Of a stretch of DNA of 64,000 nt, positions 13,030 to 58,672 are shown piece after piece. The DNA comes from an uncultured Gammaproteobacteria bacterium (GTDB lineage Bacteria > Pseudomonadota > Gammaproteobacteria > Pseudomonadales > Azotimanducaceae), in NCBI GenBank assembly GCA_913043815.1, contig CAJWNY010000001.1, positions 1 through 64,000 on the forward strand, written 5' to 3'. Made by a program: the position numbers and the translations under genes. Every line of letters starts with the position of its first letter. The stretch's first letter is position 1. The notes under the pieces were generated by a model that was not told the origin of the DNA, made no database searches, and worked only from the letters and a program-made list of their open reading frames with translations.

Positions 13030-14931
13030 ATGAGTAATCAAATTTCCTCCGTACAGCAGCAGTCACGACTAAAAGACCTAATTAAAAAAGGTAAAGAGCA
13101 GGGGTTTTTAACCTACGGTGAAGTTAACGACCACTTACCCGATGATATTTCTGATCCTGAGCAGATCGAAGACATTATTCGCATGATTAATGACATGGGC
13201 ATCACTGTCTATGAAACAGCTCCGGATGCTGATGAATTGCTTTCTAATGAAGAAAATACTGCGGATGAATTAGCTGCCGAAGAAGCGGCGGCAGCGCTTG
13301 CGGCGGTAGAGACCGAAGCCGGCCGTACGACAGATCCAGTACGTATGTATATGCGGGAAATGGGCACTGTTGAGCTTCTCACTCGAGAAGGTGAAATTGC
13401 TATTGCGAAGCGGATTGAAGAAGGTATTAGAGATATTTTGACAGCTCTGGCTCATTACCCGGGCACCGTCAGCTACTTGCTTGATACCTACGCTGAAGTG
13501 ACCAAAGAAGAAAAACTTGCTGATTTGTTGGTAGGTTATTTAGATCCTACAGATAATGTGCCTGCAGCTACTCAGGTAGGCCAAGAGCCGAAGAAGCCAG
13601 AGCCCGTGCTAAATGCAGATGGTACGCCGGCTTTGAACGCGGATGGCACTCCAGTAGTTGCCGAGGAAGAGGAAGAGGAAAATAAGGGGCCAGATCCCAT
13701 TGAAGCTAAAAAGCGTTTTTCTTTGCTTAAGCGCCAATACAATAAGTCTCTGAAAATTATCGAGGAGAAAGGCGCTAATAGTAAAGAATCTGAAGCTCAG
13801 ATGGTCAAGTTAGCTGAAGCCTATTGCTGCTTTAAGTTAGTTCCGAAGCACTTTGATCGGATGGTAGCTATGGCTCGAGAAGCCCAAGGGATTGTGCGCC
13901 GACATGAACGTATCATTACGACAGCAGTAGTTCGTCGGGCTCGTGTGCCCCGTGATGTATTCCGCAAAGAATATATTGGCAACGAAATCAGTGTGAGTTG
14001 GATCAATAAGATCGCCAAAAATAAGAAAGAATACGCGGCTGGTTTAGAAAAACAGCGCGATGATATTCTGCGCTCACAGAAGAAGATGAAAGCGCTGAGC
14101 AAAATTACCGAACTTAGCATAGTAGAAATTAAGGATATTAACCGGCGCATGTCGTTAGGCGAAGCTAAGGCCCGTCGAGCGAAAAAAGATATGGTTGAAG
14201 CGAACCTGCGCTTGGTTATTTCTATCGCAAAGAAATATACCAATCGTGGCCTGCAGTTCTTGGACCTTATTCAAGAAGGTAACATTGGTCTAATGAAAGC
14301 AGTTGATAAGTTTGAATATCGTCGTGGTTATAAGTTTTCAACTTATGCTACTTGGTGGATTCGTCAGGCTATTACGCGCTCAATTGCGGACCAAGCCAGA
14401 ACTATTCGTATTCCAGTGCACATGATAGAAACCATCAACAAGTTGAACCGCGTTTCGCGGCAGATGTTGCAAGAGATGGGACGTGAGCCGACGCCAGAAG
14501 AACTTGGTGACCGTATGGAAATGCCGGAAGACAAAGTGCGCAGAGTCTTGAAAATTGCAAAAGAGCCTATTTCGATGGAAACGCCAATTGGCGATGATGA
14601 AGATTCCCACTTGGGGGATTTCATAGAAGACAGTACAATTGGTTCTCCGATCGACTTGGCAACAGGCGAAGGTTTAAGAGAAGCGACTAAAGATGTGTTA
14701 GGCGGGTTAACTGCTCGTGAAGCGAAAGTACTGCGTATGCGCTTCGGCATTGATATGAATACGGACCACACTCTAGAAGAGGTAGGTAAGCAATTTGATG
14801 TAACGCGTGAAAGAATACGTCAGATTGAAGCTAAGGCACTGCGCAAACTGCGTCATCCTAGCCGGTCAGAACATTTACGCAGCTTTCTCGATGAAAGTGT
14901 TGAAGGTGGCAAAGGCAGAAACAACGTTTAG
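13030..14931 (+). CDS. rpoD: RNA polymerase sigma-70 factor RpoD
   Basis: region 1.1, 2.4 ([36 protein letters not shown]) and region 4 motifs. Confidence 0.98.
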
Positions 14932-15082: not shown

Positions 15083-15531
15083 GGGCCTATAGCTCAGTTG
15101 GTTAGAGCAGTGGACTCATCAATAAAGGTGCGCCTGATACCGAAAGGGTCAGGATGAACGGGATGAATTCAGGGAAACCGTAGCGAACTGACCTTAGTTG
15201 GTAGGTGCGCCGGCAATCCTGATCCAAGCCGGCAGTACACTGTCGGAAGGTGCAGAGACTACCTGAGAGCTGGAACCTCGCTTTAACTTAGTTCTAATGG
15301 GCTTAAACATTTGTAAAATATTGTTTAATTTCAGTTGAAAGAAATCTACGTTAAAAACAAGGTTCTAAGTGCTCTTAATAACAGGCCAGAGCGTCCCGCT
15401 CCCTAACGAAACTTAGTACCTAGAAGGTTAGTGATAAGCAGGCGAGGGAGGTGAGATAGTCCGCACATTGTCGAAAGGCAGTGAGAATGTGAATCCATTG
15501 GTCCCAGGTTCGAGTCCTGGTGGGCCCACCA
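15083..15531 (+). tRNA. ileX: split tRNA gene, anticodon CAU, Ile2(CAU)-like; exons 15083..15119 and 15492..15531 (CCA encoded)
   Basis: exons join to a full cloverleaf: GGGCCTA/TGGGCCC acceptor, GCTC/GAGC D stem, GTGGA/TCCAT anticodon stem, loop CTCATAA, CCAGG/CCTGG T stem; TTGGTC variable region and rpoD-downstream position resemble tRNA-Ile2 rather than elongator Met. Confidence 0.9.
15120..15491 (+). other. group I self-splicing intron (IC3-like), 372 nt, no ORF
   Basis: interrupts tRNA directly after U36 and ends in G; IGS GTG (15128-15130) pairs with exon CAU (U.G at splice site); P2 CCTGATACC-GAAA-GGGTCAGG (15133-15153); P GAATTCAGGGAAACC (15165-15179); Q AATCCTGATCCAAGCC (15215-15230); R GGTGCAGAGACTACC (15249-15263); S GAGATAGTCC (15453-15462); P9 CATTGTC-GAAA-GGCAGTG (15466-15483). 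Confidence 0.92.
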
Positions 15532-58047: not shown

Positions 58048-58410
<363 letters not shown>

Positions 58411-58672
58411 AATTTTATTCTAGTCTGGTAGGCACCTGCTGCGCGTTCCTGCTGAGCAAAGTACATAGCAAAGTGCTGAATAACGTACTGAGCAGAATCA
58501 GCTCAACTTAATGTAGTTTCGAGCTTATGCTGGCATAGCTATGCTTTATCGAAGATATTTTCAATTTTTTTATCTTTTTGAAGAAAAAACTTCTTATTTT
58601 TCCGCAGCTTATAGGCTTTATCTGTATTTTATTTCCTTGACTCTCACTAAGCGCCTATATAGTGTCGCAATC

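Follow-up and report, generated by a model that had tools for sequence, protein, structure and literature searches.

What interrupts the tRNA gene that lies downstream of rpoD in the window (the whole 64,000-nt stretch of DNA analysed here), and what does the interruption mean for the decoding of AUA? The gene occupies 15083–15531 of the forward strand, to which all coordinates below refer. It consists of a 37-nt 5′ exon (15083–15119; tRNA positions 1–36, terminal letters GGACTCAT) that ends in the anticodon CAT, a 372-nt insert (15120–15491) with a terminal G at 15491, and a 40-nt 3′ exon (15492–15531) that reads AATCCATTGG...CCA, the CCA being encoded. Both exons are defined by the sequence and by ARAGORN, and the 5′ exon also by contiguous intronless homologues in sister genera. 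When introns are allowed, ARAGORN recovers an unspliced gene of 449 nt with a 372-nt intron, and without the intron option it calls zero tRNA in the window. The insert matches the Rfam group I intron model RF00028 over its full length (model positions 1–253 of 253) at 57.5 bits, above the gathering threshold of 50 (E 5.6e-12). The first-pass annotation had proposed a group I intron in a CAU tRNA gene; the covariance model bears this out, the joined exons give one clean 77-base cloverleaf, tRNA(cat), in ARAGORN, and the coordinates, boundaries and P1 pairing proposed there were exact. Comparable tRNA-Ile2 introns, 37 first gathered from many genera and 58 after a class-wide search, likewise interrupt the gene right after its CAT and have the 3′ boundary G|AATC (in two, a 3′ end misplaced by ARAGORN was corrected before use), and these shared boundaries exclude a chance origin of the window intron. 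Among other RNA features, a class A RNase P RNA is found at 58049–58413 of the window, and elsewhere in the genome (L027, G000:C1:88475-88535) a tRNA that breaks off within the T arm, with AT-rich DNA behind it, may be the remnant of an attachment site.

The conserved pairings of the intron can be located in its sequence. The internal guide sequence GUG (15128–15130), found in all aligned relatives, is complementary to the exon CAU (15117–15119) and forms P1 with a U.G pair at the splice site, while P2 (15133–15153) and P9 (15466–15483) are hairpins with GAAA loops, evident in the sequence and in the aligned relatives; guide, splice-site pair and both loops had been recognized in the first-pass annotation. 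The 5′ strand of P3 (CGGGAU, 15159–15164) pairs with GUCCCG (15393–15398), that of P4 (UCAGG, 15169–15173) with CCUGA (15218–15222), and that of P7 (GACUA, 15257–15261, element R; from sequence and comparison of relatives) with UAGUC (15457–15461, element S). P8 (15399–15450) is closed by CUCCCU (15399–15404) and AGGGAG (15445–15450). Between P7 and the 3′ strand of P3 lies a 131-nt J7/3 domain (15262–15392), made up of a P7.1 stem, CCUG/CAGG (15262–15265/15382–15385), and a long AT-rich extension. Compensatory changes among 34 introns preserve the pairing in P3, P4, P7.1 and P8. For example, pair 5 of P3 is A-U in 25/34 and G-C in 9/34, and P7.1 has several pair types at each position (C-G in 25, G-C in 8 and A-U in 1 at pair 1), although such counts come from introns that share ancestry and are not independent events. 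P7.1 is fully paired in all 34 introns, against a mean paired fraction of 0.73 after shuffling. Its domain is 36–37 nt long in most relatives, 38–60 nt in several and 81–131 nt in the closest kin of the window. The AT-rich extension (15270–15369) varies in length among sister species, with introns of 270 to 372 nt; the idea that it is a mobile repeat was rejected, since the genome contains no second full copy. As to a homing endonuclease, no ORF of at least 100 aa occurs inside the intron.

The kinship of the intron was one point on which the first-pass annotation failed. It had compared the intron with the IC3 intron of Azoarcus, implying a gain from Betaproteobacteria, and several features agree with this: the host tRNA and the nucleotide are the same, P2 and P9 are GAAA-capped, the guide is GUG, and Azoarcus-type introns occur at the identical position in two of the collected loci (L108 and L116). 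However, in IC3 introns the 3′ strand of P3 directly follows the 5′ strand of P7 without a P7.1, and the IC3-type introns compared (in tRNA-Leu UAA, tRNA-Arg CCU and Azoarcus-type tRNA-Ile genes) have only 0–5 nt between P7 and P3, the place of the whole J7/3 domain in the window. Sequence profiles separate the two classes in the same way: with its closest relatives held out, the window intron scores 172.7 bits with the P7.1-class profile and 35.9 bits with the IC3-type profile, and the order is reversed for the two Azoarcus-type introns (88.5 and 78.1 bits with the IC3 profile, at most 14.8 with that of the P7.1 class). Hairpin and scores together rule out the IC3 assignment, which we regard as very improbable. 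An extra pairing, P7.1, between P7 and P3 is a feature of subgroup IA, and extra P7 hairpins have been described in the subgroup IA2 introns of IStrons and in the Twort ribozyme (PMC4227781, PMC1995217). We therefore place the window intron with subgroup IA, as an IA-like intron assigned by its P7.1. Since L108 and L116 belong by profile to a separate lineage, the same nucleotide of tRNA-Ile2 is occupied by two unrelated intron lineages.

Whether the host has another copy of the gene was addressed by BLAST with the joined exons; the pattern CTCATAA is blind to CAU tRNAs with a TTCATAA loop. In eight intron-bearing genomes of the family, seven of them 96–99% complete, tRNA-Ile2 was found only as separated halves, in keeping with the suggestion that the split gene might be the only one. 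The assembly of the window is fragmented and approximately 90% complete, and the sole-copy claim leans mainly on these more complete relatives. A second 3′-exon match in one genome (G181) was rejected as a contig-end match, the coordinate offsets of which fit a 55-nt overlap. Two intronless sister genera carry a contiguous tRNA-Ile2, 91% identical and also beside rpoD, and this locus is the natural empty site of the intron. The genome encodes TilS (153.6 bits), and AUA accounts for 138 of 666 isoleucine codons (21%) in 24 ORFs of the window. With a sole, split copy, a tilS gene and frequent AUA codons, the host very probably needs to splice the intron in order to decode AUA. A dead pseudogene, with AUA read by another, intact tRNA, could be imagined given the incomplete assembly and a splicing activity deduced from sequence. 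It would have to be reconciled with intact exons that do not differ among three sister species even as the intron drifts, with a catalytic core that is intact and covarying, and with the lack of a contiguous copy in the eight genomes, and we give it very little credence.

A CAU anticodon by itself cannot tell tRNA-Ile2 from methionine tRNA, and the identification rests on the neighborhood. In Escherichia coli K-12 the gene order is tsaD, rpsU, dnaG, rpoD, mug, ileX, with ileX annotated as tRNA-Ile(CAU); in the window it is tsaD, dnaG, rpoD (an ORF at 13030–14931) and then the split tRNA gene. Because rpoD adjoins the gene as it does E. coli ileX, and because the gene, with its CAU anticodon, is distinct from that of the elongator, the split gene is tRNA-Ile2 (the ileX locus), as the first-pass annotation had held. 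That it is instead elongator tRNA-Met(CAU), the label ARAGORN gives the joined exons, is ruled out as the least credible reading of all by this synteny and by a separate elongator gene (GGCTACG...TTCATAATG, anticodon loop TTCATAA in the genus of the window), which is whole in sister genomes and, in the genome of the window, is found at the end of a contig.

Taken together, the locus is best read as the sole tRNA-Ile2(CAU) gene of its host, at the ileX locus, split after position 36 by an endonuclease-free, P7.1-bearing, IA-like intron that is most likely active, a reading to which we assign a probability of about 0.93. The established chemistry of group I introns and the intact core suggest a two-step, guanosine-initiated splicing reaction. 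Following transcription, itself presumed (a crude consensus scan found neither promoter nor terminator), the intron would fold and pair its guide GUG with the exon CAU, placing the U.G pair at the splice site. In the first step, cleavage after U36 would be brought about by an external guanosine bound in P7. In the second, the U36 end so released would attack the junction behind the terminal G and join the exons as the 77-nt tRNA. Modification of C34 to lysidine by TilS would then let the tRNA read AUA as isoleucine. Through the long, fast-growing AT-rich extension of P7.1, the maturation of tRNA-Ile2 could come to respond to conditions. It is nevertheless unlikely that splicing of this obligatory AUA decoder serves as a control point, by which the intron would regulate AUA-rich translation rather than merely persist.

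The first-pass annotation had also described such introns as rare in Gammaproteobacteria, which does not hold for the genomes sampled. Within the order of the window, 296 genomes were sampled, and 27 of them contain a match to RF00028. The core motif AMGGTGCAGAGACTA occurred in 27 of 369 sampled gammaproteobacterial genomes (a reversed control matched two); 22 of these carry the P7.1 class at the same tRNA-Ile2 site, in four the interrupted gene reads as tRNA-Thr(UGU), and in one the match lies in a coding sequence. The lineage is thus present in about 6% of the sampled gammaproteobacterial genomes, in which ordinary tRNA annotation would call the gene missing. A broad pattern search of contigs was noisy, and only matches confirmed as split tRNA genes, among those listed, were kept. 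Identical boundaries are seen in Gamma- and Betaproteobacteria, Planctomycetes and a Runella MAG, and carriers include Lysobacter daejeonensis, Luteimonas aestuarii, Dyella mobilis, Rhodanobacter fulvus and Singulisphaera acidiphila, as well as MAGs of Azonexus, Comamonadaceae and Runella. By RpoD, the nearest named relative among the matches listed is a MAG labelled HTCC2089 (97%).

Other intron insertions were encountered during the survey. In the four genes read as tRNA-Thr(UGU) (L223, L226, L227 and L236) the guide of the P7.1-class intron is changed to match, a possible spread to another anticodon. Introns of this class also occur in nine leucine tRNA genes of the same order (L034, L035, L037, L041, L046, L047, L048, L050 and L059), read by ARAGORN as Leu(CAA). 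Two tRNA-Ile2 genes (L055 and L056) have a group I intron before the anticodon (33/34) and not after it, two 23S rRNA introns with an apparent homing endonuclease frame (L060 and L058) were seen in G107 and G099, and two introns (L033 and L038) lie in apparent protein genes.

In 34 of the 58 intron loci, rpoD is the immediate upstream neighbor. Over 28 loci, intron distance correlates with RpoD distance (Mantel Spearman rho 0.53, 0/2000 permutations), and with the kin of the window reduced to one the correlation is 0.47 (3/2000 permutations). This fits an intron passed down mainly along with its host locus, lost in places and now and then transferred. At one locus of the same order (L036, G117:C47) the intron is markedly different (0.45). 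There rpoD is followed first by a truncated 5′ half of tRNA-Ile2 that has no intron and then, just over 100 bp on, by the complete, intron-bearing copy. The divergent intron and the truncated half together suggest allele replacement, of which the half may be a trace, or else one of integration. The P7.1 lineage offers a natural series for studying how introns come to be indispensable, disappear, or take the place of an intronless allele.

The window intron is real and is essentially a known kind of element. Within the open-licence literature searched, a 2014 review places tRNA group I introns in cyanobacteria and in alpha- and betaproteobacteria (PMC4033280). According to passages of the tRNAscan-SE 2.0 paper, the tRNA-Ile2 genes of Acidovorax and Burkholderia contain group I introns, and in 36 genomes such introns account for a missing fMet or Ile2 gene (PMC8450103). 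As in the window, a marine gammaproteobacterium, the host tRNA is tRNA-Ile2 and the gene is hidden from tRNA finders; those passages give no subgroup, gammaproteobacterial survey or locus history. Two introns from Burkholderiales/Comamonadaceae (L088 and L090) belong to the P7.1 class of the window. The subgroup IA introns of phage Twort and of IStrons, with P7.1/P7.2, share the extra hairpin between P7 and P3, but the window intron has one P7.1 hairpin, no P9.1/P9.2, no encoded protein and a tRNA host. The tRNA-Arg(CCU) introns, as in Agrobacterium, are also group I introns in a tRNA anticodon loop; they differ in being IC3-type, without P7.1 and in another tRNA. The second group I intron of the genome (L002, G000:C13:21136-21344) is of this kind. 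The IC3 intron of Azoarcus sp. BH72, approximately 205 nt long, lies in the same tRNA-Ile(CAU) as the window intron, and its look-alikes L108 and L116 share the insertion nucleotide and the GUG guide, but it has no P7.1 and, by the profile scores of those look-alikes, is of a different lineage. Two distinct group I lineages thus share one nucleotide of an essential, single-copy tRNA.
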